Origin: Acidithiobacillus sp.
GTDB lineage: Bacteria; Pseudomonadota; Gammaproteobacteria; Acidithiobacillales; Acidithiobacillaceae
NCBI RefSeq assembly: GCF_023255755.1
Contig: NZ_JAGDVS010000192.1
Span: forward strand, 1-32,918
Direction: 5' to 3'
DNA: 32,918 nucleotides
The notes beneath the pieces were generated by a model. The model was not told the origin of the DNA. It did no database searches and was given only the letters and a program-made list of their open reading frames with translations. Below, one piece after another: positions 13,483 to 28,904 of the stretch (positions are counted from its first letter, which is position 1; every line of letters begins with the position of its first letter). A program made the position numbers and the translations under genes.

Positions 13483-14252
13483 AAACGATTACGGTAGCCA
13501 ATCAAAAAGGCGGCGTGGGGAAGACCACCATTGCCCTGCACATTGCTGCGGCGGCGCATGCCGCAGGTCTCAAAACCTTGCTGGTGGATCTGGACCAACA
13601 AGGATCTGCATCATTTTTGGCGACGGGAGACCAGAATGCTCATCGCACCAAAGAGAACACGGCGTTGGATTTGTGGTACGAAGATCGGGAACCAGTTTTT
13701 ACCGAGAGTCTATTTGGCTTTCAGCTACTAAAATCATCTGACGAAATTGACGCGGTGGATGATGACGTGCAGGAGGGCATCGTAGCGCTAAAACGCCTGG
13801 GAAATTATGGTTTCGACTGTGTTATTTTGGACGCGCCGCCGGCGCCTGGTGTACGTCAGGTGGTTCCATTGATGATGTCGGACCTGCAGGTGGCGCCGTT
13901 CACCGCGGATGCGCTGGGCACGCAGGGTCTGGTCAGCATGATCATGGGCTGGCAGGACCTCAAAAAAAGACGCCCATCCATGAAATTGCGCGCTCTGGTT
14001 AATCTGCACAAGGTCGTGTCCGGCACACAAAAGGCTATCATCGAAGGGCTACGGCCTAAGTTGGGCGAATTGCTGCTCCCGGAAGTGCTGACGGACCGGG
14101 AAGTCGTGAAGCACGCATTACGTAATGGCAAGCCGATCTGGGAATATGCACCCAAAGACCCGGCGGCAGACGTGTGGCGGGCAGCCTGTGAACGCCTGAT
14201 ACAGGAAGCTTCGGAAGCTGATAGTGACTATGCCGGGGAGGAAGTGGCGTGA
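13479..14252 (+). CDS. parA: ParA-type partition ATPase
   Basis: A 257-residue Walker-type ATPase of the ParA/Soj/MinD superfamily, small (type Ib-like) because it lacks the N-terminal helix-turn-helix extension. The deviant Walker A motif KGGVGKTT is at residues 10-17, with the switch region DLDQQGSA near 41-48 and the DAPPAPG Walker B-like segment near 122-128. ParA forms nucleoid-bound gradients that position plasmid copies with ParB on parS. The start overlaps the previous gene by 4 bases, and parB follows with a GTGA overlap. The ATG at 13479 fits the family start; in-frame codons back to 13398 are inside the upstream gene. Confidence 0.95.
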   Translation: MKTITVANQKGGVGKTTIALHIAAAAHAAGLKTLLVDLDQQGSASFLATGDQNAHRTKENTALDLWYEDREPVFTESLFGFQLLKSSDEIDAVDDDVQEGIVALKRLGNYGFDCVILDAPPAPGVRQVVPLMMSDLQVAPFTADALGTQGLVSMIMGWQDLKKRRPSMKLRALVNLHKVVSGTQKAIIEGLRPKLGELLLPEVLTDREVVKHALRNGKPIWEYAPKDPAADVWRAACERLIQEASEADSDYAGEEVA

Positions 14253-15643
14253 GAAGATCGATTATGGCCAGTTTGGAAGATGCCTTGGGAGCTGCCGTCC
14301 AGGGCGTCGGCGAAACGTCAAAAAAGCAGCGGAAGGAAAATCAGGCCGCTCCGGCGGTGACCGCACTTTTTGTGCCGCTGGATGACATCCAGCCCGATCC
14401 GGACCAGCCGCGTAAATTTACCGAAGGTGGTGCGATCGATGAGAGCTTGGCATTGATGGCGGAGAGCATTCTGCAGCACGGCGTATTGCAACCGATATCG
14501 GTCAAGCCGCTGGGCGAAGGGAAGTACCAGATAGTCACCGGCGAGCGCCGGTGGCGCGCCTCCAAGCTGGCCAGGAATCGAGGTGAAGCTTGCAGGCGCA
14601 GGGGGTATGACCTGGAGCGCATCCCGGTCCACATCCTGGAGCCGGCGAGCGACTCGGATAAGCTTGAGATGCAGCTCGTGGAAAATCTGGCACGCTCTGA
14701 CATGAGTCCGGAAGATATTGGCAATGCGTTGCAACGGTTGCTGGATGATACCAAGCTGAGCAAGGAAGCGCTCGCGAGACGCCTTGGCCGCTCTGCGACC
14801 TGGGTCAAGAACCTGTTGGCCCGGGCGAATCCGGAAGCGCAGGCCATGGCCGAACGGCTGGGTGTGCCCATGGATGAGATCGGCAGCAATGAAATGGCTC
14901 GTATGCTCGCATGGTCTCGTGATGCCAATAAATGCGTGGTCATCGACTGGGTGTCCGCACGGCTTCAGGCGGGTGAAACGCTGACGCGCAATCTGCTGGT
15001 GGAAGAAGAGGATCGTTACGAGATAGAGGTCAAGCTGGAGTTGCAGGACCGTGGATTATCGCTGGAGGATTTGCGCAAAGTCAGGGACTTCGTGCAAAGC
15101 GAGAAACCGGAGGAGCGGGGCATCGCCACTCGTGTTCGTGCGGGGATGAGTCTTGCGGAGGCTTATGCCATGCCTTCGGTGACCCATTCAGAGGAATCCG
15201 TTGAGGACGGTCCTCGCCAAGATCCCGCGCAGGAGGATTATGGTAAGGCTGCCGCAGGACGCCCTATGTTCTTTCCTGATTCTGGTGATGCCGAGGGCAC
15301 TTTTGAACGCATGGGCGATGCCCAAGAACTACAGGAGGCGGCGTTCGCGGCGCGCCGAGCTGGGGAAATGGCCCAACAAGTCACCCGGCCAGCGGTCAAT
15401 GCGGGGACGGAAACCAGAGGGACAGCGACCTTTGAGGGGGCCAGCGCCCGAGAAAGTACGCCCATTCGCGATGCGGCTACGGCATCCAGTGCCGCCGACG
15501 GCTACGCACCGCTGATTGTCGTTCGGGTACCGCAGGAGATCGCTGCAGGTTTGTTGGAAAAGGCGGGTAGGGCCGATATGGAACTATCCGGTGATGCGGT
15601 GCTGGAAGCTTTGCGGTTGATATTAAACCCATGTTCTGTATAA
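14249..15643 (+). CDS. parB: ParB-type partition protein
   Basis: A 464-residue ParB/Spo0J-family protein. The N-terminal nuclease-fold domain has DIQPDPDQPRKF (about 45-56) and the CTP-binding motif TGERRWRAS (about 96-104). A central helix-turn-helix lies near residues 170-192 (LSKEALARRLGRSATWVKNLLA). A long variable linker follows (about 300-440, with Ala/Glu/Arg-rich low complexity), then a short C-terminal segment. Start choice: GTG 14249 has GGGGAGGAAG (14235-14244) well spaced and overlaps the parA stop; ATG 14264 is the alternative. The last codons (after LRLILN) abut the IS-derived tnpB region, so the natural C-terminus may have been replaced at insertion. Confidence 0.93.
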   Translation: MRRSIMASLEDALGAAVQGVGETSKKQRKENQAAPAVTALFVPLDDIQPDPDQPRKFTEGGAIDESLALMAESILQHGVLQPISVKPLGEGKYQIVTGERRWRASKLARNRGEACRRRGYDLERIPVHILEPASDSDKLEMQLVENLARSDMSPEDIGNALQRLLDDTKLSKEALARRLGRSATWVKNLLARANPEAQAMAERLGVPMDEIGSNEMARMLAWSRDANKCVVIDWVSARLQAGETLTRNLLVEEEDRYEIEVKLELQDRGLSLEDLRKVRDFVQSEKPEERGIATRVRAGMSLAEAYAMPSVTHSEESVEDGPRQDPAQEDYGKAAAGRPMFFPDSGDAEGTFERMGDAQELQEAAFAARRAGEMAQQVTRPAVNAGTETRGTATFEGASARESTPIRDAATASSAADGYAPLIVVRVPQEIAAGLLEKAGRADMELSGDAVLEALRLILNPCSV

Positions 15644-15644
15644 T
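15617..15644 (+). promoter_or_regulatory. Promoter spanning the parB end, driving the tnpB remnant
   Basis: TTGATA (15617-15622), a 16-base spacer and a perfect TATAAT (15639-15644). The predicted start is about 15651, the A of the tnpB ATG, so the transcript would be leaderless or nearly so. The -35 box lies within parB codons. Confidence 0.5.
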
Positions 15645-15650
15645 AAAACC

Positions 15651-16169
15651 ATGAGAATTCAGAAGGCCGTTCGCTATCGTTTGGAGCCCACATTGGAGCA
15701 GGAATCGCTCCTGTCGCGGGCTGCCGGTTGCGTGCGCTTCGTCTGGAACAGGGCGCTGGCTATCCAGAAATCCTATCTGGAATCGGGTTGTGGCATTCTG
15801 TCCTATGTGGAACTCGCCAAGTGCCTGACCACCTGGCGCAATGGCGAACCTTTCGGCTTTTTGTCCGAATCCCCTGTCCATCCACAGCAGCAGGCACTTA
15901 AAAACCTCGACCGGGCATTTCAGGAAGCCTTTAATCCCGCCAATCCCAAACGCTTTCCGGTCTTCAAAAAGAAAGGTCGCAACGATGGTTTCCGCTACCC
16001 GGCACCGGAACAGATCAAGCTGGATTTGCAGACTGCGGACCCCGACGGGCGGCGTATTCTGCCGCGCATCTTCCTCCCGAAGATCGGCTGGGTGAAGTTT
16101 CGCAAGTCCTGCCCCGTGGGTGGCGAGATTCGCAATGCCACGGTGCGGCGCATGGCGGGACGCCAGTAG
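15651..16169 (+). pseudogene. tnpB: Truncated TnpB (IS200/IS605 or IS607 type), N-terminal part only
   Basis: The 172-residue frame begins MRIQKAVRYRLEPTLEQE and continues with the AAGCVRFVWNRAL helix, the N-terminal domain of TnpB/OrfB. Full TnpB proteins are roughly 350-450 residues with a RuvC-like nuclease (D-E-D) and a zinc ribbon; none of that is present. The frame ends at a TAG in ordinary sequence 68 bases before virD4, so the 3' part, including any guide-RNA end of the element, has been lost. No tnpA was seen. It has its own promoter-like sequence and is inserted between parB and virD4. It is a remnant; whether the fragment is translated is unknown. Confidence 0.85.
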
Positions 16170-16179
16170 TGGATTCAGC

Positions 16180-16207
16180 CTATCTCTCATGGCGCCGGGC
16201 TATACCC
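16180..16207 (+). promoter_or_regulatory. Bipartite transfer promoter/operator, site 3 (virD4)
   Basis: CTATCTC (16180-16186) and GCTATACCC (16199-16207), 20-base phasing, TATACC at 16201-16206. The flanks are shared with site 2 (GCCTATCTCT, 11 bases, GCTATACCC). Transcription would start near 16213, inside the hairpin described next. Confidence 0.75.
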
Positions 16208-16237
16208 TCATGACAACCATCGTCAGAGGGTATTTTT
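16202..16237 (+). terminator. Hairpin plus T5 over the virD4 Shine-Dalgarno
   Basis: Arms ATACCCTC + TGAC (16202-16209, 16211-16214; one bulged A) pair with GTCA + GAGGGTAT (16222-16233) around a 7-base loop, followed by T tract 16233-16237 and ATG 16238. It has the form of an intrinsic terminator, and its 3' arm contains the virD4 Shine-Dalgarno GAGGG. The 5' arm overlaps the -10 of site 3, so only transcripts arriving from parB/tnpB can form it. Read-through would be stopped or left untranslated. Confidence 0.7.
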
Positions 16238-18433
16238 ATGGCAAAGAAGAATCAGGCGCACCGGCCAGACCAGAATCTGTTTGACTACCAGACGCAGCGC
16301 AAAGCCCGATTTGCGACCCACGATGCCATCACCGGTGCCATCTTCGGTGGCATTATCGGGAACTTGGTCGGCGGCACGGTAGGTGCACATATCCTGGGCT
16401 CTACTGCCCACGACTTCATGCCGCTGTATAAACCCATGACGTTTGTCGGTGGCTTCCAGGCTTACAGCCTGATCCCCTTCTTCAAGCCGTTCCTCGAATA
16501 CTACACGAAATACCCGCTGATCTCCGATGCCTTCTGGGCGGCCGCCGGCATTACGGCGGCTTTCGCCGGCGCTGGTTACTGGGTCGGTAGCAAGAAGGCC
16601 GGGAAGGCCCAGCAACAGATCCTCGAAAATGACATCCACGGCAGCGCGCATTGGGCGACCCGGAAAGAAGTCGAGCGGATGAGCCTCCTTCCGGACACCA
16701 AAAAGAAGAGCGATCGGATTTGCTATGTGGGAGGTTATAAAGAAGGGAAGGTGCTCTATTATCTGCAGGACACGGACACCATCCACATTATCGCCTTCGC
16801 GCCGACGCGATCCGGAAAGGGCGTGGGTTTGGTGCTGCCCACCTTGCTCGGCGGTTGGAAAGACAGCGTGGTCGTCCACGACATCAAGGGCGAGAACTAT
16901 GCCCTGACCTCTGGATACCGCCGCAAGATCGGCAACAAGGTGTTCAAGTTCAATCCGGGTTTCGCCACCGAGAACGACGACGACATGAACCGGAACGAGG
17001 CGCAAAATTGCCACTTCAATCCGCTGGAGGAGATCCGGGTCGGCACCAAGTTCGAGGTCAAGGACGTGATGAACATCGCCACCATGATCGTCGACCCGGA
17101 CGGCAAGGGCCTGAATGACCACTGGCAGAAGACCGGGTTTGCGCTACTGGTTTCTGTGATTTTACATGTGCTGTACACCCAGCCGGATAAAACCATGCGC
17201 GGTGTGTCCGCTTACCTGAATGACCCGGAGTTGAGTAATGTGGACGTCGCTTTTGAACGGATGATGCGGATCGAACATGATCCTGCGGGAAAGTTTCAGT
17301 GGAAAGACCAGCGTGGCAACAGCACCAGGGTGCACCCCGTCATTGCGCAGTCGGCCAGAGAAATGCTCAATAAGGCGGACAATGAAAAATCCGGCGTAAT
17401 CAGTACGATGAATAGTTTCTTGAGTCTTTATCGCGATCCCATTGTCGCCGGGTGGACCGAGTTCAGTGATTTCCGCATCGTCGACCTGCAGGACGCCGAC
17501 GACCCGGTATCCTTGTACCTGGTGACTTCTCCGGAAGACAAAAATCGCCTGAAGCCGCTGATTCGCCTGATCCTCAACCAGATCGCCAGCCGGTTCACGG
17601 CGGAAAACCGCCTTGCGCAAAAGGGCAACAGGATTTCCTGCATCGGCAAGCATCGGTTGTTGCTGTTGCTTGATGAGTTCCCGTCCCTGGGCAAGCTCGA
17701 TGCGTTCAAGGATGGAATCGGGTTCCTGGCCGGCTACAACGTCAAGCTGATGCTGATCGCCCAGAGCAAATCGCAGCTGGAGGACGAAACCCACGGCTAC
17801 GGCAAGGCCGGTGGTACCACCATCATCGAAAATTGCGGTGTTCGCGTCATTTACGCCCCCAACAACATTGATACCGCCGAATGGGTATCCAAGATGCTGG
17901 GTACCCGCACCTTGACCATGGAAAACAACAACCAGACATACCAGGGGTCGGTGCTGCCGCAAGCGCAAGGGTCCAGCACGTCCTTGACGTATCAATCGCG
18001 TGCGCTGCTGACGCCAGATGAGGTTATGCGTCTGCGCGGCCCCAGGAAGGACGGTGAGCTTATCGTGGAGGCCGGTGACATGCTGATCCTGAAGGCGGGG
18101 TTTGCGCCGGTGTATGGGCAACAGATGCTGTATTTCAATGACCCGTTGTTTGCGAAACGCGCAGAGTTCCCCGCCCCCACGGAAACAGACGTGCTCTGCC
18201 ACGGAAAAGATTATGTGAAAATCTTCGGACCACATGGTGGCGTGGTGGAGGCACCCAGTGACGAATTCCCGCAGGCTGCGATGCCGGATGATCTGATCGA
18301 GGAGATAGACGCCGGCCGTAAGTCTGCCGCTACTCAAGGTGGCGGCGACGAAGTGATTTCCGATGAAGCGGTAGCCGACGCGCTGGCCGCTGTCAGTGCC
18401 TTGCCGGAGGAATTCCTGAATCTGATCCGTTGA
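16238..18433 (+). CDS. virD4: VirD4/TraG-type coupling protein
   Basis: A 731-residue type IV coupling protein, the hexameric inner-membrane ATPase that brings the relaxase-DNA complex to the secretion channel. Hydrophobic segments lie near residues 31-52 and 96-117. Walker A (APTRSGKGVG, Lys194) and Walker B (LLLLDEFPSLGKLDAF, about 475-490) are intact, as are the VHDIKGENY segment after Walker A and the GYNVKLMLIAQS motif. The C-terminus is acidic. The start is set by GAGGG 7 bases upstream, which is inside the hairpin. The gene ends 3 bases from the converging lytic transglycosylase gene. Clear family member with all catalytic motifs. Confidence 0.95.
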   Translation: MAKKNQAHRPDQNLFDYQTQRKARFATHDAITGAIFGGIIGNLVGGTVGAHILGSTAHDFMPLYKPMTFVGGFQAYSLIPFFKPFLEYYTKYPLISDAFWAAAGITAAFAGAGYWVGSKKAGKAQQQILENDIHGSAHWATRKEVERMSLLPDTKKKSDRICYVGGYKEGKVLYYLQDTDTIHIIAFAPTRSGKGVGLVLPTLLGGWKDSVVVHDIKGENYALTSGYRRKIGNKVFKFNPGFATENDDDMNRNEAQNCHFNPLEEIRVGTKFEVKDVMNIATMIVDPDGKGLNDHWQKTGFALLVSVILHVLYTQPDKTMRGVSAYLNDPELSNVDVAFERMMRIEHDPAGKFQWKDQRGNSTRVHPVIAQSAREMLNKADNEKSGVISTMNSFLSLYRDPIVAGWTEFSDFRIVDLQDADDPVSLYLVTSPEDKNRLKPLIRLILNQIASRFTAENRLAQKGNRISCIGKHRLLLLLDEFPSLGKLDAFKDGIGFLAGYNVKLMLIAQSKSQLEDETHGYGKAGGTTIIENCGVRVIYAPNNIDTAEWVSKMLGTRTLTMENNNQTYQGSVLPQAQGSSTSLTYQSRALLTPDEVMRLRGPRKDGELIVEAGDMLILKAGFAPVYGQQMLYFNDPLFAKRAEFPAPTETDVLCHGKDYVKIFGPHGGVVEAPSDEFPQAAMPDDLIEEIDAGRKSAATQGGGDEVISDEAVADALAAVSALPEEFLNLIR

Positions 18434-18436
18434 CCG

Positions 18437-19111
18437 CTATGGGTTGATATGGAGGCGCACGGGGCCGCTGGTAGTCAAAGCGGCCTTTTTCGTGGCCGGT
18501 TTTGCTCGCTGTGGGGGATAAACCAGCTGGGCCACCGTCCACTGCATGAACCCATCGCCAGGCTTCTGCGCCGCAGGATCCCAGTTAGTCTGAACGGGCA
18601 GGACAAATGCGGATGCCTGCACGGCGTGATAGCGCATGGCGCCGTCGTTCTGGATATAAACGGGTATGCCCGCTGCGGCCAGGACATGATTCGCATAGCC
18701 GCGGTCGCCGATGGGCGCGCCCGAGTTATAGATTTCAAAGGCATGGAAGAGTGCGCGTTGCGGGTTGCCGGGATATTCACGCCGTGTCGTGTCCCAGGCG
18801 GCCTGCAGAATGGCAGCGCCGGCGTGCAGATTGGTGCAGGCATTCAGCGCCGTAGCAGGGGTGAGCCCATATTTCCGGAAGTTTTCGGTATCCACCTGGG
18901 CGATGCCCACGTCCACCTGGTGACGGGCCGCCATCAATCGCCGCAGAATAGCCAATGCTTGGCCCAAGGTGTGCGGGCGATAACCTTTGTGTGCGGTGTT
19001 GTCCCACATCGCCAGCGGATCCCCGCCGGATTCCACCCGGACGATCGCCGCCATGGTGACCGGTGCAATTTGCGTTGCGCATTGTTGAATGGCCGACTGA
19101 ATGGGCAGCAT
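18437..19111 (-). CDS. virB1: VirB1-type lytic transglycosylase
   Basis: A 224-residue protein with a SLT/VirB1 lysozyme-like domain that opens the peptidoglycan for the conjugation channel. The catalytic Glu is E27 in IVRVESGGDP, and the VDVGIAQVDTENFRKYGL motif and the later AFEIYNSG segment are typical of the family. No signal peptide is obvious at this start (MLPIQSAIQQ...), a feature shared with some VirB1 relatives exported unconventionally. It overlaps the upstream metallopeptidase gene by one base (TGATG), so it is translationally coupled. It is the last gene of the traF operon, converging on virD4. Confidence 0.93.
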   Translation of the reverse strand: MLPIQSAIQQCATQIAPVTMAAIVRVESGGDPLAMWDNTAHKGYRPHTLGQALAILRRLMAARHQVDVGIAQVDTENFRKYGLTPATALNACTNLHAGAAILQAAWDTTRREYPGNPQRALFHAFEIYNSGAPIGDRGYANHVLAAAGIPVYIQNDGAMRYHAVQASAFVLPVQTNWDPAAQKPGDGFMQWTVAQLVYPPQRAKPATKKAALTTSGPVRLHINP

Positions 19112-19653
19112 CAGAGCCGGTCCCGAAGGTTCCGCAGCCGATCCTGCATGATGGCATCATTGGGCTTCCCGCGAGCCACTATGGCGATTTGCATGCCGCG
19201 AATCATGGCGTATGCGCCGGCCTTGGGATCACCGAGATGAACCCCCAGTGCCGCTGCGCCCCATAGGTCCGCAGCGCGCTCTGCCTTGGGTAGAGCATAG
19301 AGGCCCACGATGCTGCCCCCCAGCGCCGCCAGCCAGAACGCCTGAAACAGCCCGATCGTGAACGACAGGAAAAACAGGATGATGGCCAGGAACCAAACGA
19401 TGGCGTCTTTTTTGGCCGGATGGTGCCAGGCCACATGCCCCAACTCATGTGCCAGGACATAGCGGCGCAGCTCCGAGTCGGTCAGGGTTTTGGCGTGCAG
19501 GAATACCTTGTGTTGGGACGATGTATAGCCGAAGCCAGTGAGCTTGCGTTTCCAATCAGACGCGAACAATCCAACGGTGGGGCAGGGGCCATCACCCTGG
19601 CCATCCCGCCAGAGCACTTCGGCCTCCTGCTGGACGTCGTCAAGTGTTGCCAT
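19111..19653 (-). CDS. M48-like membrane zinc metallopeptidase
   Basis: A 180-residue protein (from ATG 19653) with the zinc motif HELGH (in VLAHELGHVAWHH) and a downstream ERAAD that can supply the third ligand, as in M48 peptidases. Two hydrophobic segments lie between them. It is shorter than most M48 proteases. TTG 19659 is an alternative start with better Shine-Dalgarno spacing (AGGAG overlapping the traF end); the ATG is 13 bases from it. The gene lies between traF and the transglycosylase with overlaps, so it probably acts on an envelope or pilus substrate. Processing of the pilin C-terminus before TraF cyclisation is an attractive inference. Confidence 0.85.
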   Translation of the reverse strand: MATLDDVQQEAEVLWRDGQGDGPCPTVGLFASDWKRKLTGFGYTSSQHKVFLHAKTLTDSELRRYVLAHELGHVAWHHPAKKDAIVWFLAIILFFLSFTIGLFQAFWLAALGGSIVGLYALPKAERAADLWGAAALGVHLGDPKAGAYAMIRGMQIAIVARGKPNDAIMQDRLRNLRDRL

Positions 19654-19661
19654 GCTCAATC

Positions 19662-20279
19662 TCAATCTCCTTTCTGCAGCCAGTATTGCGATCCGGGTAT
19701 CACCAGGAAGGCTCGGGCCGATCCGATGATGTTCCCGATGGGTACTGGCCCATAATACCGGCTGTCGTAGGCGTAATTGCCCGGTGCATAGTCCCAGAAG
19801 GTGCCCGGCTTGATGTAATAACTGCCATAGGGCATATGGATTACCTGCCGGCCGCCGGGGCTGGTGGTCATCATCTGGCTATTGGGCAATTTCTTGCCAT
19901 CGACCCATGCGCCGTCGCTCTTCACGAGAACAGTTTGGCCTGGTAGGGCGACTATCTTCTTGAGGAAGGGGGTGAGGTGTCCAGGGCAGGACCATGGCCC
20001 GCCCGAAGTGCGAGAAACCCAATGCCGTCGGATAGCCTGACGCATTGATGCGTTATGGATGGGCGGGCAGAGATACACCATGTCGCCGTCTTTCAGGGAG
20101 ATGGGGGTGTTGCCGCGTTGATAGAAGCCCACGGGGAAGCATGTCGTGGTGTTCAGGGACAGACGGTCAGCGGCGCTCAGGGACGCCACGGCCATGGTCA
20201 GGACGCCGACGGCGATCACGGTCCACATGCTGACCGTGGCTACCACGCTGATGATGTGCTTCCATTTCTTTGCCGCCAT
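19662..20279 (-). CDS. traF: TraF-type S26 signal peptidase with Cys in the nucleophile position
   Basis: A 205-residue inner-membrane peptidase of the TraF (S26) family, which in P-type systems trims and cyclises the TrbC pilin. It has an N-terminal membrane segment (about residues 10-33), the nucleophile region NTTTCFPVGFY (Cys47), and the lysine region LKKIVALPGQTV (Lys near 103). The C-terminal GPVPIGNIIG segment is also family-typical. The usual pattern is S-x-P-x-G; here the codon is TGC (20141-20139), giving C-x-P-x-G. ATG 20279 is chosen because CAGGGG lies 7 bases upstream; TTG 20294 is inside the hairpin stem. First gene of the maturation operon. Confidence 0.9.
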   Translation of the reverse strand: MAAKKWKHIISVVATVSMWTVIAVGVLTMAVASLSAADRLSLNTTTCFPVGFYQRGNTPISLKDGDMVYLCPPIHNASMRQAIRRHWVSRTSGGPWSCPGHLTPFLKKIVALPGQTVLVKSDGAWVDGKKLPNSQMMTTSPGGRQVIHMPYGSYYIKPGTFWDYAPGNYAYDSRYYGPVPIGNIIGSARAFLVIPGSQYWLQKGD

Positions 20280-20280
20280 G

Positions 20281-20312
20281 AAAAACCCCTGCAAGCGGAT
20301 TGCTTACAGGGG
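20281..20312 (-). terminator. Hairpin plus T5 over the traF Shine-Dalgarno
   Basis: On the - strand CCCCTG (20312-20307) pairs with CAGGGG (20291-20286) and AAGC (20305-20302) with GCTT (20296-20293), with a T-G wobble between and a 5-base loop; T5 (20285-20281) and one base separate it from ATG 20279. The 3' arm holds the Shine-Dalgarno. The 5' arm overlaps the -10 of site 4. This repeats the virD4 arrangement with different bases, so base pairing rather than sequence is kept. Confidence 0.7.
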
Positions 20313-20337
20313 TATAGCGGGGAATGGATTGAGGTAG
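20309..20337 (-). promoter_or_regulatory. Bipartite transfer promoter/operator, site 4 (traF operon)
   Basis: On the - strand CTACCTC (20337-20331) and GCTATACCCC (20318-20309), 20-base phasing, TATACC at 20316-20311. A start near 20304 is predicted, within the hairpin stem, leaving the Shine-Dalgarno free in locally initiated mRNA. Confidence 0.7.
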
Positions 20338-20344
20338 CGTTGGT

Positions 20345-21019
20345 CTATCTGGCCAGCGTCTGAGACTTTAACCACTGTTCCGGGCTGGCGTAGAATTTCT
20401 GTACCTTGCTCAATGCCTGTTGCGAATATTGGCTGAAACCGGGTAATGGCCTAACGCGGCTGATTTCCCTATCCCAATGTGACTTATTAGTGGCATAAAA
20501 TGCCAAGCGTCTTTGTATGTCATCAGTTCGCGCGGTGAGGATGCCAAGATTCTTTTTTACCACGGAGGGATCCTTTGTCAGGAATACCGCCATGTCAAAT
20601 ATGTCGCGCGCCGTGAAGCCCTCCGCACGGTAGAAACATTTCTTGGCGATGATCTCTTCCGGCTTGTCCAGCAAAACCTTACGGCCATGAATGGTCGCCG
20701 CCTGAGTAGAGTTCGCTACCAGGCGCGGTGCAGCTACAAAGTCCACTTCACCCAAGTCATCAAAAATCAGCTTGACGTGTTGGGAGTCTTCACGGTAGTG
20801 GACGGTGAGGTCTTCCACCTTGTCATTCAAACGTGGCGATAAGGCGGTCAGATATTGCGCATCCGTGATAAAAATATCGACATCGTGGCTTAACCGGTGA
20901 CGATACTTAAACATAAGCACCGTGCCGCCGCCAATGGTCCATTCGAGCCTGGGCAGATGAGGGGGTAAAGAATCTATTGCCACCATGGCCTTGTCGAAAA
21001 GCGGTTCCCAGGAATCCAT
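20345..21019 (-). CDS. AbiEii/AbiGii-like nucleotidyltransferase
   Basis: A 224-residue protein of the nucleotidyltransferase-fold family annotated as AbiEii/AbiGii toxin-like. It has the GG(G)T..L...R.S.D.DIF motif (WTIGGGTVLMFKYRHRLSHDVDIFI, about residues 27-51), a third acidic residue in VDFVAAP, and the C-terminal signature LDKPEEIIAKKCFYRAEGFTARDIFDMAVF. AbiEii toxins transfer nucleotides (to tRNA ends in characterised cases) and are controlled by AbiEi antitoxins, but no AbiEi homologue is recognisable here. The start overlaps the upstream 92-residue gene by one base (TGATG). It is the last gene of a four-gene block, probably a toxin or defence component with a novel partner. Confidence 0.85.
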   Translation of the reverse strand: MDSWEPLFDKAMVAIDSLPPHLPRLEWTIGGGTVLMFKYRHRLSHDVDIFITDAQYLTALSPRLNDKVEDLTVHYREDSQHVKLIFDDLGEVDFVAAPRLVANSTQAATIHGRKVLLDKPEEIIAKKCFYRAEGFTARDIFDMAVFLTKDPSVVKKNLGILTARTDDIQRRLAFYATNKSHWDREISRVRPLPGFSQYSQQALSKVQKFYASPEQWLKSQTLAR

Positions 21020-21297
21020 CAGGCAGCCCAGGCATCCAGCGGAAAATGAAAGTCATTCGGAAACCCGGGTCGGACGTACTGGTCTAGGGTGGCGAGCGCC
21101 TGTTCTACGGGGATGTGGCGGCCACGCATAAACCCGAGCTGTGCCCCAAGGTCGCACTCATAAAAGAACGTCTGTAGCCCCATGGTATCTACCTCAGAGG
21201 TGCCGCGCAGCCAAGCCTCCAGATCATCGCCCGTCACCATGACGTGTCGCGGGGCGTTGATTGTGGTTAATACCATCCAGTCATTATTCGGCCTCAT
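21019..21297 (-). CDS. Small protein paired with the AbiEii-like gene, unknown
   Basis: A 92-residue soluble protein without a recognised family; it contains VMVTGDDLEAWLRGTSEVDTMG and a Pro/Phe-rich C-terminus. It overlaps both neighbours (ATGA with the upstream DUF6036-like gene, TGATG with the AbiEii-like gene), so stoichiometric co-translation is likely. By position it could be the antitoxin or a specificity partner for the AbiEii-like protein. Confidence 0.7.
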   Translation of the reverse strand: MRPNNDWMVLTTINAPRHVMVTGDDLEAWLRGTSEVDTMGLQTFFYECDLGAQLGFMRGRHIPVEQALATLDQYVRPGFPNDFHFPLDAWAA

Positions 21298-22205
21298 AAA
21301 CCATGCCCCTTCTTGCCCCGTTCTTTATCGCGGTCACGCACGATCAGTTTATGCCCCTGTTCGAGCAGAGTCACCAATTTACCCTTGAATGCGGACAATT
21401 CTGGCATGGCTTTGTAATCACCGCGGTAGACAGCGATCATGTCCCGTGCGGGGCTCAGGAAGGCCACGGAACGGTCTTCACTTAAGCTGATCAGTATGCC
21501 AGTAATCTGCCCTCTGGACAGGCAATGCGTTGGTAACTCAGATCCTCCACCTTCTGCCAGCCGCTGCGCGTCGTTGCGTTTCAGGCGCGTGGGTTCCGGG
21601 GGAATATATCTGGAAGGCGGTGGCTGGATGGTTGGCTGATATCCCATATGGTGTAGTGCAGTTATGGTATTGTGGTGAACCTGTCCCACATTTCCCACGT
21701 AATAGCGCATAGCGGCTGCAGCGCGGGTTTCCAGTGCCTGCGGAGTGATCAGCCTGTCGGTATAAAGCTCTTGAATATCCCGCTGGTCATTGTCGGCATA
21801 TCGCCCCAGCTTGGATACTGCCAGATCGACCGGCGAAAGCACCAGAATGTCGAACTGCCTATCTGGCGACTGCGCCACAAAGATGGCGTCCTCCTCCGCA
21901 TCTGGATGCATCAGGCTGATGACTGGCGCGTAATTACGATCCCAAGTCAGCGTGCAGCGCCGTCCGTGCTCATCCACGTAGGGTACAAGCACTTCTGGCA
22001 AAACTATCCGGTGGGAGAAAATAGCGTCCACGTCCTCCGAGCTGCGGGTCGGGGAATATAGAGCCATGGCGGCACCGCCCGTCATGATAAGGCGTACCGG
22101 CTCTTCCAGATGACCGTTCATACTGGATTCGGTCTGCCGGATCAGCTCGCGCGCGGCCTGAAAGATGGGCCGTTCGGTGTATAGGTGCGGGTACTCAGCA
22201 GACAT
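21294..22205 (-). CDS. DUF6036-like nucleotidyltransferase-fold protein
   Basis: A 303-residue protein with an N-terminal nucleotidyltransferase-like core: LIMTGGAAMALYSPTRSSEDVDAIF (about residues 34-58) has the GG and D-x-D elements, and QFDILVLSPVDLAVSKLGRYADNDQRDI (about 113-140) matches the second part of the DUF6036 type. The C-terminal ~130 residues (after about 175) form an extra domain with a Pro-rich linker and a basic end (RDRDKERGKKGHGL). ATG 22205 is chosen because the family-like part starts here; it lies 11 bases inside the upstream gene. The open frame further upstream is a shadow of that gene. Second nucleotidyltransferase-fold protein of the block. Confidence 0.8.
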   Translation of the reverse strand: MSAEYPHLYTERPIFQAARELIRQTESSMNGHLEEPVRLIMTGGAAMALYSPTRSSEDVDAIFSHRIVLPEVLVPYVDEHGRRCTLTWDRNYAPVISLMHPDAEEDAIFVAQSPDRQFDILVLSPVDLAVSKLGRYADNDQRDIQELYTDRLITPQALETRAAAAMRYYVGNVGQVHHNTITALHHMGYQPTIQPPPSRYIPPEPTRLKRNDAQRLAEGGGSELPTHCLSRGQITGILISLSEDRSVAFLSPARDMIAVYRGDYKAMPELSAFKGKLVTLLEQGHKLIVRDRDKERGKKGHGL

Positions 22206-22704
22206 ATGGCGGCCGCAACAACCGCTTGAGACGGTCATAGAGCGCTCCGGATGAGAGACGCCAGCGAGCTGCCAGGGCATCCATGGGATTGTGCCGTGAA
22301 TCTCTGGGAAAAAACGGCAACAAGGGGACTTCTGGCAATTGTTTTGCCACGTCATCCAGCCATGGCAACAAAGAATGCTGCCATTCCTCATGCTGCGGAG
22401 CGAAATAGCAGAGCAAATCCAGCAAATAGCCTCCCCGTTGGACGACAGGCCAGTCATGTTGCCGCAGGTTGAGTTCCACGGCGTCCCGCAGCCCCGCGCC
22501 ATCCAGATCTGGATCGGCGTGGCGCGTAAAATAACCGAGAGGTGGTTCCAGGTCGCGCAAGGCCATATCCGGTTGAGGGTTACTCAACAACCGGAATAGT
22601 GTGGCCGTCGACAGATCTTCTCGCTGACCTAAGTAGTATAAAGCGGTCAGGGCAGAGTCGCGGCCATGAGGATCAACCATTATTTGCTTCATAATGGGAA
22701 GCAT
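22195..22704 (-). CDS. Helical protein with possible C-terminal HTH, unknown
   Basis: A 169-residue, Leu-rich, probably all-helical protein. I recognise no family. The last 30 residues (DALAARWRLSSGALYDRLKRLL) resemble a helix-turn-helix, so a regulatory or nucleic-acid-binding role is possible. The start is uncertain: ATG 22704, 22692 and 22680 are all in frame and none has a good Shine-Dalgarno; 22704 is 6 bases after the preceding stop. It overlaps the DUF6036-like gene by 11 bases and heads the four-gene nucleotidyltransferase block. Confidence 0.7.
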   Translation of the reverse strand: MLPIMKQIMVDPHGRDSALTALYYLGQREDLSTATLFRLLSNPQPDMALRDLEPPLGYFTRHADPDLDGAGLRDAVELNLRQHDWPVVQRGGYLLDLLCYFAPQHEEWQHSLLPWLDDVAKQLPEVPLLPFFPRDSRHNPMDALAARWRLSSGALYDRLKRLLRPPYVC

Positions 22705-22710
22705 AGCACT

Positions 22711-23010
22711 TTAAAGCGAAATGCCCAGCGCCTGCCCAGCCAGGTGCATTCCCGCTTCCTTGCGGAGCTCCTGCCCAGGCGTCTCATAACCCAAGCCTGC
22801 CGCCTCCTGTGTGAGTTTCTGGATGCGGCGCTCAGCCAGAAAGCGTTCCGTGCTGCCGACGGTGAGGCCTGCTGGATCCGGAAGCCTGGCGGACACCTGT
22901 AGGTGATCCATGAGCTGCCGTAGCTTGCGCTGCCGCTCAATATCTTTCCGTTTATCCGCATCGGCGTATTCTCCGATGGCCCATGCCCTGATTTCTCCGG
23001 TCGCGCTCAT
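22711..23010 (-). CDS. Small charged helical protein, unknown
   Basis: A 99-residue protein, charged and probably helical, with a basic coiled-coil-like stretch (DKRKDIERQRKLRQLMDHL). No family was recognised. ATG 23010 overlaps the stop of the solenoid-repeat gene by ATGA, so it is coupled to that gene. Function unknown. Confidence 0.7.
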   Translation of the reverse strand: MSATGEIRAWAIGEYADADKRKDIERQRKLRQLMDHLQVSARLPDPAGLTVGSTERFLAERRIQKLTQEAAGLGYETPGQELRKEAGMHLAGQALGISL

Positions 23011-24287
23011 CGTTCGACCCCCTTGGCTTTAGCCTGTTCAACCAGTTTTACTGGATCCACATCCAACTTTTCCCGGAAGAATGCTGCCGTCCGGTTATTT
23101 TCTGCATTTTTCAGAATGGCTTCATTCGGCTTGAGCCAGCCACCCTGTCCCTGGACACGCTCGAAGCGCCTGTCCTTGTCCTGCTCTTCCGGGTGAAACT
23201 CGGTGAAATCCGCCCGGGCAATCCGGATCTCGCCAGCCTTCACGTTCGGCGTTTGCACGTTCATGTACAAGGTTGGCTTGTTTTCCCGTTCAATCTTTGC
23301 GCTGTAATAACGATCCCCGTTTTGCCCACGTTCCTCGAAAGAGACCTTATGACTTTCATCAACGCCGGACTCCTTGTTGCTGATCCGCACCGTAGCGCTC
23401 AGCTGACCTTCGTTGTCGACGTAGACACCAGACGAATACCAGGTACCTTCCGGCGTTTTCAGGGCGGATTCCATGCGCGGTAGCTGCTCCCTCGGCCGCG
23501 GTGTTTGGCTGGCAACGCGGACAGACAACTTTTTTTCCGCCGCAATCCGCACATCTGCGTCCTCATCGCCAACTGCCCGGTCCACCTGCGCGTCGGTCAT
23601 CCTCTGGTGTAAATGCGTCACGCCAGCCAGCCGGACCTCTGGCTGTAGGTCGGTTAGTACGCGCTCAACCTGGGCGTCGTTCATCCGTTCGGCAAAACGC
23701 TCTGTGGCCACCTCTCGCCAGGCGGCGTTACGGATGGTCAGTTCCTTCTCTACCTGCTCGTCTGACAGGCGTGAGCTGAGATTGCCGAGCGCTTGCGCCC
23801 GCATTCTGTAATCCGGATCATGTAGTGCCCGGTCGACTTGCGCATCATTCATGCGCATCACCAGACTCTTTGTCGCCTCCGCTCGTACTGCAGGATCCTT
23901 ATCCGTCAACGCGTTCTCCACTTGCTGGTCCCGCATGCGCGGCGCCAGATCGCTTAGTACAGAGGCGCGAGTCTGTACATCCGGGTCAGCTAGCGCCCTG
24001 TCCACCTGCGCATCATTCATGCGCCCTGCAAACCGATTGACGGACATGTTCCTGACCGGCGCGTACTCGTCGGTTAAGGCACGCTCGACCTGTACGTCAT
24101 CCATGGATTTTGACAAGCCGGCTACGGCGAACACTCGTACATTCTCGTCGGAATCGGTTAAGGCACGCTCCACCTGTTGTGCGGTCAGAATATCCGCGTA
24201 GTTGTGGACCGCCTCCAGGCGCGCCACACTATCCGTACTGGTCAGCTGCACCTCGATTTCTGCAGGGTCGATTTCCATAGTGCTCAT
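23007..24287 (-). CDS. Nine-repeat alpha-solenoid protein with the primase C-terminal domain
   Basis: A 426-residue protein. Residues 10-261 consist of exactly nine 28-residue units with the pattern QVxRALxDxDxxVRxxAxxxLxxRMxDA, a HEAT- or LRV-like helical repeat. Residues 269-426 form a module (PRMESALK...GTWY...GQL.ATVRI...FTEFHPEE...QGQGGWLKPNEA...AKGVER) that also ends the upstream primase and occurs a second time, more divergent, within it. The primase also has two of the 28-residue units just before its modules. This gene therefore looks like a partial duplication of the primase 3' end followed by repeat expansion. It overlaps both neighbours by 4 bases (ATGA). Probably a scaffold or ssDNA/protein-binding partner of the primase; function unproven. 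Confidence 0.8.
   Translation of the reverse strand: MSTMEIDPAEIEVQLTSTDSVARLEAVHNYADILTAQQVERALTDSDENVRVFAVAGLSKSMDDVQVERALTDEYAPVRNMSVNRFAGRMNDAQVDRALADPDVQTRASVLSDLAPRMRDQQVENALTDKDPAVRAEATKSLVMRMNDAQVDRALHDPDYRMRAQALGNLSSRLSDEQVEKELTIRNAAWREVATERFAERMNDAQVERVLTDLQPEVRLAGVTHLHQRMTDAQVDRAVGDEDADVRIAAEKKLSVRVASQTPRPREQLPRMESALKTPEGTWYSSGVYVDNEGQLSATVRISNKESGVDESHKVSFEERGQNGDRYYSAKIERENKPTLYMNVQTPNVKAGEIRIARADFTEFHPEEQDKDRRFERVQGQGGWLKPNEAILKNAENNRTAAFFREKLDVDPVKLVEQAKAKGVER
23010..23483 (-). repeat. Module copy 3 (direct repeat with 24287-24769)
   Basis: The DNA encoding the C-terminal module of the solenoid protein is visibly similar to 24287-24769, especially in the last 60 bases (both end in GGGGGTCGAACGATGAGC-type sequence) and around the FTEFHPEE and QGQGGWLKPNEA codons. 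The two copies are about 1.28 kb apart in direct orientation, so recombination could delete one gene. Confidence 0.75.
23505..24260 (-). repeat. Nine tandem 84-base units encoding 28-residue repeats
   Basis: Nine consecutive in-frame units of 84 bases encode the solenoid of the 426-residue protein. DNA units are diverged, with conserved codons at QV-R-L, D, VR, A, L and R(M/L). Unit length is constant with no indels, suggesting selection on spacing or relatively recent expansion. Confidence 0.8.
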
Positions 24288-26758
24288 CGTTCGACCCCCT
24301 TGGCTTTGGCCTGTTCAACCTGTTTTACCGGGTCCACATTCAGCTTCTCACGCATGAACTGCATCGTATGATCCTTGTCGCCTTTGGCGAGCATGGCCTC
24401 ATTGGGCTTGAGCCAGCCCCCCTGACCCTGGATGCGGTCAAAGCGTTTGTTCTTGTCCTCTTCTTCAGGATGAAACTCGGTGAAATCCGTGCGGCCAATC
24501 CGGATACGGATGTCACCTTCCCCTGCGGCTTGAGCCTGCACGTTCATGAATACGGACGGTTTGTCCTCGCGCTCAATCTTTGCGCTGTAATAACGCCCTC
24601 TGTTACCTTCACGCTCTTCGAAGGAAACCTTGTGGTGTTCATCCAGACCGGTTTCCTGGTGATTGATGCGCACGGTCGCTTTCAGTTGGCCGTCCTTATC
24701 GGCATAGACTCCAGCGGTATACCAGGTGCCATCTTGCGCCTTCAGAGCTGACTCCATCCGGGGATACTGCCGTTTTTCTTTGTCAGGGGCGGGTCCTTCG
24801 AGGTAATTGACCCCCAGCTTCTCCCCGATGGTTTGAATGGTCTTATCCTTGGCACCATGTGTGCGTGCGGCCTCATTGGGTTTGAGGGTTCCACCTTGTC
24901 CTTCGATTTGAAGATGCTTTCTGTTTTTCAACTCCGTAAACGACACCATGGCGACTTTGCTTTCGGCGTCTGGACGAACAAAAACGTGAACATCCGGGCG
25001 ATCAGGAATCTGCACTTTTGCGTGTAAAAAAGGCTTTCCATTTTTGTCCTTTTTGGCCTCGTACTCTACCTTGTGCCGCTCATCAAGGGGCTGGTCTTTG
25101 TTGGTAATGGAGACCGTCCCCTTCAATTGACCTTCCTTGTCCGCATATAGAGTCGCCTGGTACCAGGTTTCATCTTGTGCTTTAAGCGAGGCTTCCATTC
25201 TGGGGTATTGCCGGGTGGCCTGCGGCGTGTTGGCTTGCTGTTCCATGTTGTGACTCCTTTCTGGCGGTGTTTGCGGAGGGATTGGGTTGTCGAAATTGGT
25301 GTTGTCGGGAAGTCCCAAAATCGCGGCTACATCTCTGCTGTCGTTTGGGTCCGTGGACATGCTGGGTTGTTGCATAGATACCTCCTTCTTTTTTGATGGA
25401 TATGGTGCAAAACGATCTTGAAAGGCGGCGAGCGCGCGTGTATGGACCGCCGGTATTTTGTCCTCCACGAGGTTTTTTGCATGCGTTCTATCAATTTCCT
25501 CTGTGCGCCCGGCCATCTGCAGGGTGTACAGCGTATTCAATCGCACGACCCAATAAGGATCTTCCAATGCGCTGTTGATTTGTCGTGGTGACATGTACGG
25601 CACCACGGCGGCTATGCCAGATGCACGTCTGTGATCGTCTGGGAGGGCCAGTGCCGCATCAACTTCATGACTATGCGCTTCTCGATACGCCGCCCGGTTG
25701 TTTTGCTGATCCATACACTGTGTCAGTGCCACCCGGATTCCATCAGGCCCCAGTTCTTGCCGCGCATCCGCCCAATCAGCGCCTTTGGGTCCGCCGATGA
25801 TCTGAGTTGAAGGCTCAAGATAGCGTGCGGCCAGTCCTGCCTCATCCAGACTACTAATGGCGTCCCGAGCACCGCGCTGCCCAACTCTATTGACATCGCG
25901 GTCAACCAGAACGCCGATTACGGGAACGGCTGTCCCCAGATTGGCAGGTTTATGTGCTGCCTCGGCTTGTTCCATAGCCCATTTCTGAACGCCTCCCACG
26001 TCATAGGCGACGATGCCGGGCATGCCGCTAGCCTGGATGGCTACCGCTGTAGTCTCGAAGCCTTCTCCCAGCAGGAGCATGCCTTTCTCCTGGGCAGTGC
26101 CCGAGAGAGGCATGGGCACTGCTTCAGGTGGCGGTGGAAGGCGAATGACACCTTTCCGCCCCAGCATCTTACGATCCAGTTTTTGCCCGTCATCGTTGAT
26201 AAATGTCTGTTGTATGCCGCAGATGTTCCCGTCGCGGCGCATGGGCAGGATCATGACCGCGCGGGTGCCTTCCGGTGAAAAACGGTCCGGCAGGCCGATT
26301 CTGACCTGGCCCAGCCAGTGGGCATCCTCCAGACCGCGGTGAAAAAGATATTGCACAGTGACGTCTTTGGCGGCCTGCCATTGCGCGCGCCGGGCGCCCT
26401 TGTTCATGGCAGAGAGACCATTCAGGTCCGGTCCACTGTATAATTCATGCGGGGTTTTGCAGACCCATGCGTTATTCCACAGGGTGCGCGCTAACTGGGA
26501 ATTGTCTGTTTGGCGCGCTATCGGCTGATCTTGGGCAACCGATGGGGAGGGGTTCAAATCCATAGCCCGCAACAATCCCTCGATCGTGCCTCCTGCACCC
26601 GTCGCCGAGTCTAAGTACACGCCTTTGGCAGGATTGATCTTGTGCGTTTTGTGCCCCGTACCTAGAACATCCGCCTCTATCTCGCGGCCCAGTATTTGAT
26701 AGGGGATACCCGCTGCCGCCAGTGCGGTCACGATGGTTTCGCGGTTATAGGCATTCAT
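24284..26758 (-). CDS. TOPRIM-domain primase-like protein with repeated C-terminal module
   Basis: An 824-residue protein. Residues 1-220 are a plasmid-primase-type N-terminal region. Residues 227-335 form a TOPRIM domain with the catalytic Glu in LLLGEGFE (231-234) and the acidic pair in VLVDRDVN (Asp286, Asp288), plus the GGPKGADWAD segment typical of plasmid primases. Residues about 364-420 hold two of the 28-residue helical repeats. Residues 517-650 and 664-824 are two copies of the module shared with the downstream protein. It probably primes replication of the transferred strand or vegetative replication; no zinc ribbon was seen at the N-terminus. The start is one base after the ardC stop; the stop overlaps the next gene by ATGA. 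Confidence 0.85.
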   Translation of the reverse strand: MNAYNRETIVTALAAAGIPYQILGREIEADVLGTGHKTHKINPAKGVYLDSATGAGGTIEGLLRAMDLNPSPSVAQDQPIARQTDNSQLARTLWNNAWVCKTPHELYSGPDLNGLSAMNKGARRAQWQAAKDVTVQYLFHRGLEDAHWLGQVRIGLPDRFSPEGTRAVMILPMRRDGNICGIQQTFINDDGQKLDRKMLGRKGVIRLPPPPEAVPMPLSGTAQEKGMLLLGEGFETTAVAIQASGMPGIVAYDVGGVQKWAMEQAEAAHKPANLGTAVPVIGVLVDRDVNRVGQRGARDAISSLDEAGLAARYLEPSTQIIGGPKGADWADARQELGPDGIRVALTQCMDQQNNRAAYREAHSHEVDAALALPDDHRRASGIAAVVPYMSPRQINSALEDPYWVVRLNTLYTLQMAGRTEEIDRTHAKNLVEDKIPAVHTRALAAFQDRFAPYPSKKKEVSMQQPSMSTDPNDSRDVAAILGLPDNTNFDNPIPPQTPPERSHNMEQQANTPQATRQYPRMEASLKAQDETWYQATLYADKEGQLKGTVSITNKDQPLDERHKVEYEAKKDKNGKPFLHAKVQIPDRPDVHVFVRPDAESKVAMVSFTELKNRKHLQIEGQGGTLKPNEAARTHGAKDKTIQTIGEKLGVNYLEGPAPDKEKRQYPRMESALKAQDGTWYTAGVYADKDGQLKATVRINHQETGLDEHHKVSFEEREGNRGRYYSAKIEREDKPSVFMNVQAQAAGEGDIRIRIGRTDFTEFHPEEEDKNKRFDRIQGQGGWLKPNEAMLAKGDKDHTMQFMREKLNVDPVKQVEQAKAKGVER
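24287..24769 (-). repeat. Module copy 2 at the primase 3' end
   Basis: It encodes residues 664-824 of the primase and is the nearest relative of copy 3 (23010-23483). A more divergent copy 1 lies just upstream at 24809-25210 (residues 517-650). Confidence 0.75.
24809..25210 (-). repeat. Module copy 1 inside the primase gene
   Basis: It encodes residues 517-650 with the same order of motifs as copies 2 and 3 (YPRMEASLK, TWYQATLYADKEGQL, HKVEYE, GQGGTLKPNEA) but is clearly more divergent and lacks the FTEFHPEE and AKGVER end. It is the oldest of three copies. Confidence 0.7.
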
Positions 26759-26759
26759 G

Positions 26760-28748
26760 TCAGCGCCCCAGTGAATTCACTTTTTGAGGCGTGCGGTCTT
26801 CCACCTTGAGTTCGCCGGTCCTGGTGGGCTTTACTGTCACGGTATGTCCAACCATGGCCCTGATTTCCGCCTGATGTACCTTGTCCGGATCACGACCAGA
26901 TATCAGCATGGGTTTTCCAGCCGGCTGAATTTCGATCAGATTGGTATCATGCACATGCGTTAATTTTCCGGTGATCTGCATGGCATCAGAGCGGTCCATT
27001 TGTTGGAACGGCATCAACCCAAACGGTTTGGCCGGGGTGTCGAAAATATCGGTAGCAGGCTGTGGACCTAGTTCAGGGTTGTGGATTTTCAGTATTCGAC
27101 CATCATTGCTGAGGGAAACATCAATATGTTTGTCCATGGCTTTATGTAGGTAAGAATCACTAAAGCCGTCCTCCATAAACCGCTTGCCGATATCCACATG
27201 AACGACACCGTATTCTTTGGTATCCAACAGCAAGTTATCCTTTTCAAAATTTTTCAGTACACCGGAAATGCTCTGGCGGTTGTGGTTCTGGATTTCCAGA
27301 ATGGGTTTGTCCGGATCCACGGGTTCCTGGCGCACATAGTCGGGCAGGTCCTTCCGGTGAGACAGAATAACCCGGTGATGCACCTGCTTATCCTGCTCAA
27401 GCTGGATAGTGCTTTGGTGCATGACGGACGCCACCCGGAATTCGAGGGCCGCCTTAACACCGGGGATTCTTGCAGCATCGGTTTCACGGGATGCACTTTG
27501 CATATCCAGCTTTCCAATGCCGGGCACGGTGTTGGGCAGGTGACTGGTAATGCTTTGCTGATCCAAATGCGCCAAAGAATCACCAACAGCTTGAATCTTA
27601 GGCTTTCCATCCGGGCCGGGCAGTACCGCTTTGTAGCGCACCTGCTGGTCCAGGTTTGTATCCTGCAACACGATACCCGTAATTTTATGACCACTTTCAT
27701 CACGGAACTGAATTAAATCCCCACGGTTAAGCTGCATGACTTCTGGTTCCATAACATTTTCCTTTGTGGGGGCCGCAATGGCTTTTTCCTGACCGACTTC
27801 GAGCAATTTCTGCTGTGCGATGACATAATCCGCCATCTTTTCTGCGTCCCGTGCAGCGTGGTAGATTTCGTTCTTGTCGTTTTTTAGAACGGATATCCAG
27901 CCCTTCACGTAGGACTCATGATTCTCAGGATGATGGGGTATGCCCGTTTTCTCGGAAATGATGTAGGACGCCATTTCCGCACGCAGCTCTTCTTTGGCCC
28001 GCAATGTATGGTCAGAGGCCGTCCCGTTCTGAAACTGCTGTAACCTGCTCCGATTCAGGCGATGCTCTGCCATGGTGGAGTGCGCAATCTCATGCGCCGC
28101 CGTGGCATATAAATGTCCGGCATCAAGGAAGGATTCCCTGGGCGGCAAGTGAATGTCATCATTTTTAGGGCTGTAAAAAGCCTGTCCCGGACTATCGAAT
28201 AGAATGGGGGCGGACTTCTCATTCTGGTCAAACAGCTTTTCACCTACCGCATGCATGTCGAAATCGTGCGTTTGCGATGGATCCATCTCATAGGGCGGGA
28301 TCCCATCGATCTGTGAGGCGTGGAATACCGTGTAATACTTGGCGAAACGCCGGGTTTCCTTCTCTGCCGCCGCAATTTCCTTACCCCCGAACTTCGGGCT
28401 CTCGCCGCTGGATCGCTCTATGTCTTTTTCATAGCTCTTCCAGACCTCGATAGGGATACCGTGCTCCCCTTTTTTGACTTGCCAGCCCTGTTCGGCAGCT
28501 TGTTTGTATGTCACCCAGCGGGGATCCCCAGTGGGGGCGACGGTAGCTAACAACACATGGTTGCCACCGTTATATTCTTTGCCGGTAACAGCATTGATAG
28601 GGCCGGATCTGGGGCCACCGTCATACGGCCGCTGCCAGGGTGCAGTATTTTCTTCTACTGCGGCGACGATACGATTGGTGACTTCCTGGCGAACATCACG
28701 TTTCTCCCGGTTGGTGGGCGTGGTTGTACTATGTGTCTGGGTTGGCAT
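26760..28748 (-). CDS. ardC: ArdC-type antirestriction/ssDNA-binding zincin with long C-terminal extension
   Basis: A 662-residue protein. Residues 15-150 are the ArdC N-terminal ssDNA-binding domain (beginning RQEVTNRIVAAVEENTAPWQRP, with NGGNHVLL at 60-67). Residues about 165-300 are the zincin-like metallopeptidase domain with HEIAH at 219-223 and a likely third ligand in AKEELRAEMAS. ArdC of pSa-type plasmids is about 300 residues; here another ~340 residues follow, of unrecognised fold, with repeated short beta-rich segments (for example GKLTHVHDTNLIEI). ArdC protects incoming single-stranded DNA from restriction. It is the first gene of the long operon with the primase, so it is expected early after transfer. 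ATG 28748 is preceded by GAGGA. Confidence 0.88.
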   Translation of the reverse strand: MPTQTHSTTTPTNREKRDVRQEVTNRIVAAVEENTAPWQRPYDGGPRSGPINAVTGKEYNGGNHVLLATVAPTGDPRWVTYKQAAEQGWQVKKGEHGIPIEVWKSYEKDIERSSGESPKFGGKEIAAAEKETRRFAKYYTVFHASQIDGIPPYEMDPSQTHDFDMHAVGEKLFDQNEKSAPILFDSPGQAFYSPKNDDIHLPPRESFLDAGHLYATAAHEIAHSTMAEHRLNRSRLQQFQNGTASDHTLRAKEELRAEMASYIISEKTGIPHHPENHESYVKGWISVLKNDKNEIYHAARDAEKMADYVIAQQKLLEVGQEKAIAAPTKENVMEPEVMQLNRGDLIQFRDESGHKITGIVLQDTNLDQQVRYKAVLPGPDGKPKIQAVGDSLAHLDQQSITSHLPNTVPGIGKLDMQSASRETDAARIPGVKAALEFRVASVMHQSTIQLEQDKQVHHRVILSHRKDLPDYVRQEPVDPDKPILEIQNHNRQSISGVLKNFEKDNLLLDTKEYGVVHVDIGKRFMEDGFSDSYLHKAMDKHIDVSLSNDGRILKIHNPELGPQPATDIFDTPAKPFGLMPFQQMDRSDAMQITGKLTHVHDTNLIEIQPAGKPMLISGRDPDKVHQAEIRAMVGHTVTVKPTRTGELKVEDRTPQKVNSLGR

Positions 28749-28791
28749 GGGCGTCCTCGCTTATGCATCTGCATGTCTGAACCAACATGGA

Positions 28792-28882: not shown

Positions 28883-28904
28883 GCGACGTCCGGTATGATC
28901 ACGC

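Follow-up and report, generated by a model that had tools for sequence, protein, structure and literature searches.

A predicted promoter and a terminator-like hairpin share the same bases before virD4 and traF

The leaders of virD4 and traF in an Acidithiobacillus conjugative element probably combine a promoter and a terminator on the same bases, with each gene deaf to neighbouring transcription and answering only to its own promoter. At both genes the start region doubles as an RNA stop-hairpin, a design that should silence read-through. The anatomy and fold of these leaders, their recurrence with different paired sequences, and a spacing of start codons that marks the -10 box are directly supported.

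The window, i.e. the whole stretch of 32,918 nucleotides that was analysed (contig C73 of genome G000), is part of an Acidithiobacillus-type conjugative element carrying IncP-like trb/tra genes, parA/parB-like genes, topB, virD4, and the S26-peptidase gene traF. Its closest named relatives are Acidithiobacillus ferruginosus CF3 (L099, which equals contig C285 of G009, L131) and bin YP4.bin20 (L098; G007). Likely sources of read-through are the parB-like gene for virD4 and the AbiEii-like gene for traF (Table 1), the latter being part of an AbiE-like pair whose stop codon lies 28 nt ahead of the -10 box. In G009, parB stands directly 5' of virD4 and ends 45 nt ahead of the -10 box. The IS605-type insertion found in the window at this place has left the virD4 promoter and hairpin untouched.

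Table 1. Features of the virD4 and traF leaders and their neighbouring genes in the window.
Feature	Coordinates	Strand	Basis
parB-like gene, 5' of virD4, co-directional	14249..15643	+	Pfam ParB_N
IS605-type OrfB fragment between parB and the virD4 promoter	15651-16169	+	absent in A. ferruginosus CF3 (L131)
Box CTATCTC, upstream member of the virD4 two-box promoter motif	16180..16186	+	exact match to CTAYCTC-N13-CTATACCC
CTATACCC box of virD4	16200..16207	+	TATACC 16201-16206 read as -10; shared motif; start-codon spacing in related elements
virD4 hairpin 5' arm: ATACCCTC (16202-16209), bulged A16210, TGAC (16211-16214)	16202..16214	+	folding; covariance model R1
virD4 hairpin loop	16215-16221	+	
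virD4 hairpin 3' arm GTCAGAGGGTAT: GTCA (16222-16225) and GAGGGTAT (16226-16233)	16222..16233	+	folding; accessibility calculation
virD4 Shine-Dalgarno GAGGG inside the 3' arm	16226-16230	+	
virD4 T5 run, spacer from SD to ATG and putative terminator U-tract	16233..16237	+	sequence; terminator score +17.8
virD4/traG coupling protein gene, ATG 16238	16238..18433	+	Pfam T4SS-DNA_transf, E 1.4e-100
traF, S26 signal-peptidase-like gene, ATG 20279	19662..20279	-	Pfam Peptidase_S26
traF T5 run, SD to ATG; U-tract of the would-be terminator	20281..20285	-	sequence; terminator score +39.7
traF hairpin 3' arm GCTTGCAGGGGT (20296-20285)	20285..20296	-	folding; covariance model; accessibility calculation
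traF Shine-Dalgarno AGGGG inside the 3' arm	20290-20286	-	
traF hairpin loop AATCC	between 20302 and 20296	-	
traF hairpin 5' arm ACCCCTGTAAGC (20313-20302)	20302..20313	-	folding; covariance model built without traF, E 8.7e-5
CTATACCC box of traF	20310..20317	-	TATACC 20316-20311 read as -10; start-codon spacing
Box CTACCTC, upstream member of the traF two-box promoter motif	20331..20337	-	shared two-box motif
AbiEii-like toxin gene, directly 5' of traF, co-directional	20345..21019	-	Pfam AbiEii

In each leader, the -10-like box CTATACCC supplies the 5' arm, and the Shine-Dalgarno (SD) lies in the 3' arm, followed by T5 and the ATG. This arrangement had been noted in a preliminary description, and both hairpins proved real, their folds beating all shuffles. 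For virD4, the minimum free energy is -16.2 kcal/mol (z -4.55; 0 of 200 shuffles fold as well), and for traF it is -22.0 kcal/mol alone and -30.7 kcal/mol with flanks (z -6.6; again none of 200 shuffles). The stems (8+4 bp in virD4, 12 bp in traF) both exceed those listed before. A GC-rich stem directly followed by a U-run, as in an intrinsic terminator, is present at both leaders, and in RNA initiated upstream the SD of both is enclosed by the 3' arm of a stable stem. In the window, the loose pattern TATACCC-N12-30-GGG-N0-2-TTTT matches only at the virD4 and traF sites, with no match in 100 shuffles, and the traF hairpin ranks first among terminator-like sites in a scan of positions 14000-32918. 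No Rfam family matched at the gathering score in the window.

Promoters folding on the incoming single strand can be found on conjugative elements, and such a single-stranded-DNA promoter, or a protein signal on the strand transferred in conjugation, might be considered here. However, the stem contains only the -10 half of the promoter, the virD4 and traF hairpins are on opposite strands, and the T-run and the placement of the SD would be left unexplained, and we regard this reading as extremely improbable.

Predicted local starts would leave the Shine-Dalgarno free

The two-box motif CTAYCTC-N13-CTATACCC has four exact copies in the window, at 1394-1421 (+), 6236-6263 (+), 16180-16207 (+), and 20310-20337 (-), the first two being referred to below as sites 1 and 2. 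With at most one mismatch, it was found up to seven times per genome in 29 genomes of the family, at about 40 places in all, and a reversed-pattern control in the same genomes gave none in nearly all of them and one or two in three. The two boxes stand 20 bp apart and resemble each other (CTATCTC/CTATACC). The motif is probably the promoter of a regulon in these elements, and its candidate partner is a dedicated activator or sigma factor.

Several long open reading frames of related elements have their start codon 5-6 nt past the second box (L082, L128, L135, and L163; also L045 and L046), the distance expected if transcription began at the A of the ATG downstream of a -10 hexamer TATACC, and this position, recurring in independent genes, supports TATACC as a true -10 box. 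The mRNAs of these genes apparently look leaderless. Taking TATACC as the -10 box, transcription is predicted to start at 16212/16213 for virD4 and at 20305/20304 for traF, inside the 5' arm; the -10 spacing and the start-codon positions past the same box agree with a start inside the stem. The local starts proposed earlier (16213 and 20304) are thus those that the sequence would imply.

At the gene's own two-box promoter, polymerase would therefore begin 6-7 nt past TATACC, and the resulting RNA, missing most of the 5' arm, could not fold and would present a free SD, a U5 spacer, and the AUG. Polymerase arriving from upstream (from parAB before virD4 and from the AbiE-type pair before traF) would copy the whole palindrome; the nascent read-through RNA would form an intrinsic terminator that ends in the U-run, and in transcripts that escape, the SD would still be locked in the stem. 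We infer all four of the actual start site, termination, the translation block, and read-through silencing as the selected function.

The calculated cost of forcing the SD open is 14.8 kcal/mol for virD4 and 22.6 kcal/mol for traF in read-through RNA versus 3.8 and 3.7 kcal/mol, respectively, in RNA from the predicted local start. A d'Aubenton-Carafa-type terminator score, computed by script, is positive at both leaders (Table 1) and ranges from +6 to +41 across another six, five of them from trbF and the sixth from a different gene; sites 1 and 2 score -53 and -64. By these models, the earlier proposal that read-through RNA folds and either hides the SD or terminates appears to hold. Sites 1 and 2 had been described as weaker versions of the same hairpin (at 1414 and 6256; CCCAA/TTGGG and CCCA/TGGG), a claim that we do not uphold: their folds are not above shuffles (p 0.36 and 0.28) and their arms are broken in the closest relatives (TTGGG to TTGGA in L088, TGGG to CGGA in L074 and L124), implying that these pairings are due to chance.

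It might also be considered that transcription starts further upstream, with CTATCTC as a -10 box of its own, in which case all transcripts would carry the hairpin and some factor or condition would open it. A hairpin with a U-run has the textbook shape of an attenuator, and CTATCTC does resemble the box 20 bp away. However, the ATG lying 5-6 nt past the second box in other genes leaves no space for an SD and agrees with initiation beyond this box, the leaders showed no alternative antiterminator pairing, and many two-box sites lack any hairpin, so that such an attenuator seems unlikely.

The layout recurs before different genes

Among 54 sites with the two-box motif, ten were significant at p <= 0.01 when the downstream DNA was shuffled for comparison. 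The covariance model (R1) was built from six leaders (virD4, four of trbF, and one small gene), with traF left out; the virD4 leader of the window is one of its sequences, and the model recovered the traF leader of the window at the E value given in Table 1. In the 29 family genomes, it detected leaders of virD4 in G000, G007, and G009, of trbF/virB8 in eight genomes (nine places, as G011 has two), of topB in G010, G004, and G019, and of three further genes in G008, G004, and G011. Good matches before open genes carry the box, the hairpin, the T-run, and the start codon. In a class-level search of 274 genomes, the one match at E <= 0.01 beyond the window's own genome was a plain terminator outside the family that lacks TATACC, and a search of a plasmid database returned only trbF coding matches and not the leader. 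Within the 29 family and 274 class-level genomes searched, the layout was found only in elements of the Acidithiobacillus family. In a pattern scan of IMG/VR, 80 loci were inspected and gave 15 strong hairpins, but the best 14 all lack the upstream box (4-7 mismatches) and hence look like ordinary terminators; they were not retained.

In 1.68 Mb of redundant loci, ten sites with a hairpin, T4 or longer, and ATG start in TATACC, and nine of them open a reading frame of more than 200 aa; 19 such sites have no box, and just three of these open one of at least 100 aa. These data bear on another explanation, in which the hairpins are plain terminators of the upstream operons (parAB, abiE) that overlap the next promoter by chance and silence it only incidentally. 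Close co-directional maintenance genes do lie upstream of both window sites, and ordinary terminators beginning with CCC before an ATG arise by chance in very large collections, but a start in the -10 box and an end in the SD recur before different genes with different neighbours, antisense ones included, and the virD4 hairpin is unchanged whether parB or the IS605-type fragment precedes it. We therefore consider a plain terminator quite unlikely. An antisense gene lies upstream of some hairpin leaders (trbF of G011 and topB of G010), a setting in which read-through is less evident, and site 2, without a hairpin, lies within the trb run of the window. The distribution would fit hairpins placed where transfer genes border other transcription.

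In our judgement, the chances are about even that the layout represents a transferable promoter design of Acidithiobacillus conjugative elements, in which the -10 box serves as the 5' arm and the SD as the 3' arm of an intrinsic terminator, and which came into being, or was rebuilt, in front of six or more different genes (virD4, traF, trbF, topB, and others), each transfer operon hearing only its own promoter.

Pairing is kept while the sequence varies

The -10 box and the SD by themselves account in part for four outer pairs of the stem (ACCC/GGGT). Because these pairs are partly forced, the remaining ones were tested by exchanging SD regions and 5' arms among 31-32 gene clusters in 5000 permutations. 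The true pairs were stronger than in all 5000 (z -4.9 to -6.5), a result that holds after removal of the loci found by the hairpin model; when the sites of the window were removed, z was -3.55 and two of 5000 permutations were as good. Interior pair 5 is C-G, T-A, A-T, or G-C in different leaders, and topB orthologues with about 77% protein identity have CCCCTCT/AGAGGGG versus CCCCTGC/GCAGGGG, i.e. two compensated pairs. The swap test, pair 5, and the topB pairs together bear out the earlier view that pairing rather than sequence is kept.

For the virD4 and traF sites of the window, close relatives provide little covariation. In the traF leader of G009, a C-G pair has become a U-G wobble and one outer pair is disturbed; this leader still folds at -15.5 kcal/mol, and its terminator score drops to -12. 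The identity of the virD4 leader in G009 was rejected as proof of selection: it sits in a near-identical block (97% at the parB 3' end and 98% at the virD4 start over 60 nt) and so proves nothing. In many distant virD4 and trbF orthologues, the CTATACC box is kept and the hairpin is absent, suggesting that the hairpin is not obligatory and is an optional extra of the promoter. Homologues with non-complementary arms, named in the preliminary description as evidence that would speak against it, are thus found among these distant orthologues, and the interpretation given there is partly supported overall.

An inverted repeat over a promoter is also a common operator layout, and the two-box motif itself is probably bound by a regulator of the element, so the arms might be two half-sites in DNA for a repressor or activator rather than an RNA stem. 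Against this, the arm sequences and their distances vary between leaders while complementarity stays, wobble pairs are present, and the T-run stands at the position expected of an RNA terminator, all of which makes a palindromic operator very improbable.

Relation to known systems and significance

In IS10/Tn10 and IS50, the transposase of the mobile element is protected from external promoters, its SD being hidden in read-through mRNA; the hairpin is supplied by the terminal inverted repeat of the element and serves one gene per element. In contrast, the virD4 and traF hairpins are internal and start in the promoter box. The resemblance to IS10 pointed out earlier remains valid as one of several precedents, but T4 late genes and Bacillus subtilis sigG match the anatomy better. 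SD-sequestering hairpins are known for the T4 late genes I-TevI, I-TevII, I-TevIII, segB, soc, and e, where upstream transcripts fold over the SD and the transcript from the gene's own late promoter lacks the 5' arm; these are phage genes and not conjugative elements, and the part of the review available to us describes neither a U-run terminator as the spacer between SD and ATG nor one -10 box reused as an arm before many genes (PMC2988022). In sigG, a large hairpin formed only in spoIIG read-through blocks translation, and own-promoter transcripts cannot form it, but this concerns one gene with a stem of 20 bp or more, and no terminator U-run is reported in the accessible sections of that study (PMC5942855, Fig 1D). 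Terminator T1 of Tn916, as proposed for the hairpins considered here, shields conjugation genes of an integrative element; it insulates them from read-through out of the host, and a fitness benefit of this has been measured. Unlike the hairpins, it is a separate terminator near the element end, working with the antiterminator canT that serves transcription of the element itself, and does not lie within each promoter/SD (PMC11658703).

A promoter inside an SD-hiding stem is thus known logic (T4 late genes and sigG), and, with regard to the open-access literature, what the Acidithiobacillus leaders add is a terminator U-run as SD spacer, a fixed -10 arm, and reuse across transfer genes, none of which we found described there. 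Literature on ICEAfe1, in the portions available, concerns another transfer system and contains no description of such a layout. Mobile elements must hold their transfer genes off while residing beside active genes, and in Tn916 a missing insulator lowers host fitness (PMC11658703). The insulator proposed here adds no DNA, with promoter, terminator, and ribosome site within about 40 shared bases, and the design could become a compact insulated promoter. Since the design reappears in front of different genes with its stem re-paired, the rule that pairing is kept and sequence is free is directly testable.

Related hairpins and palindromes at promoter boxes

Some further promoters of these elements carry other inverted repeats. 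In a second topB group (L210, L212, and L214), the -10 box segment ATACCCTC could base-pair with GAGGGTAT directly 5' of the ATG; the loop between them is longer and itself contains a hairpin, and this is possibly the same device in a larger form. In L075, L200, and L199, SD-hiding hairpins begin in the -10 box and have no proper T-run, and a translation block without a terminator is predicted for them. Upstream of virD4 in L014, a palindrome (GTATAGC...GCTATAC) surrounds the promoter box, and GGCTAT...ATAGCC is present in L023 and L029; both are possible candidate operators.
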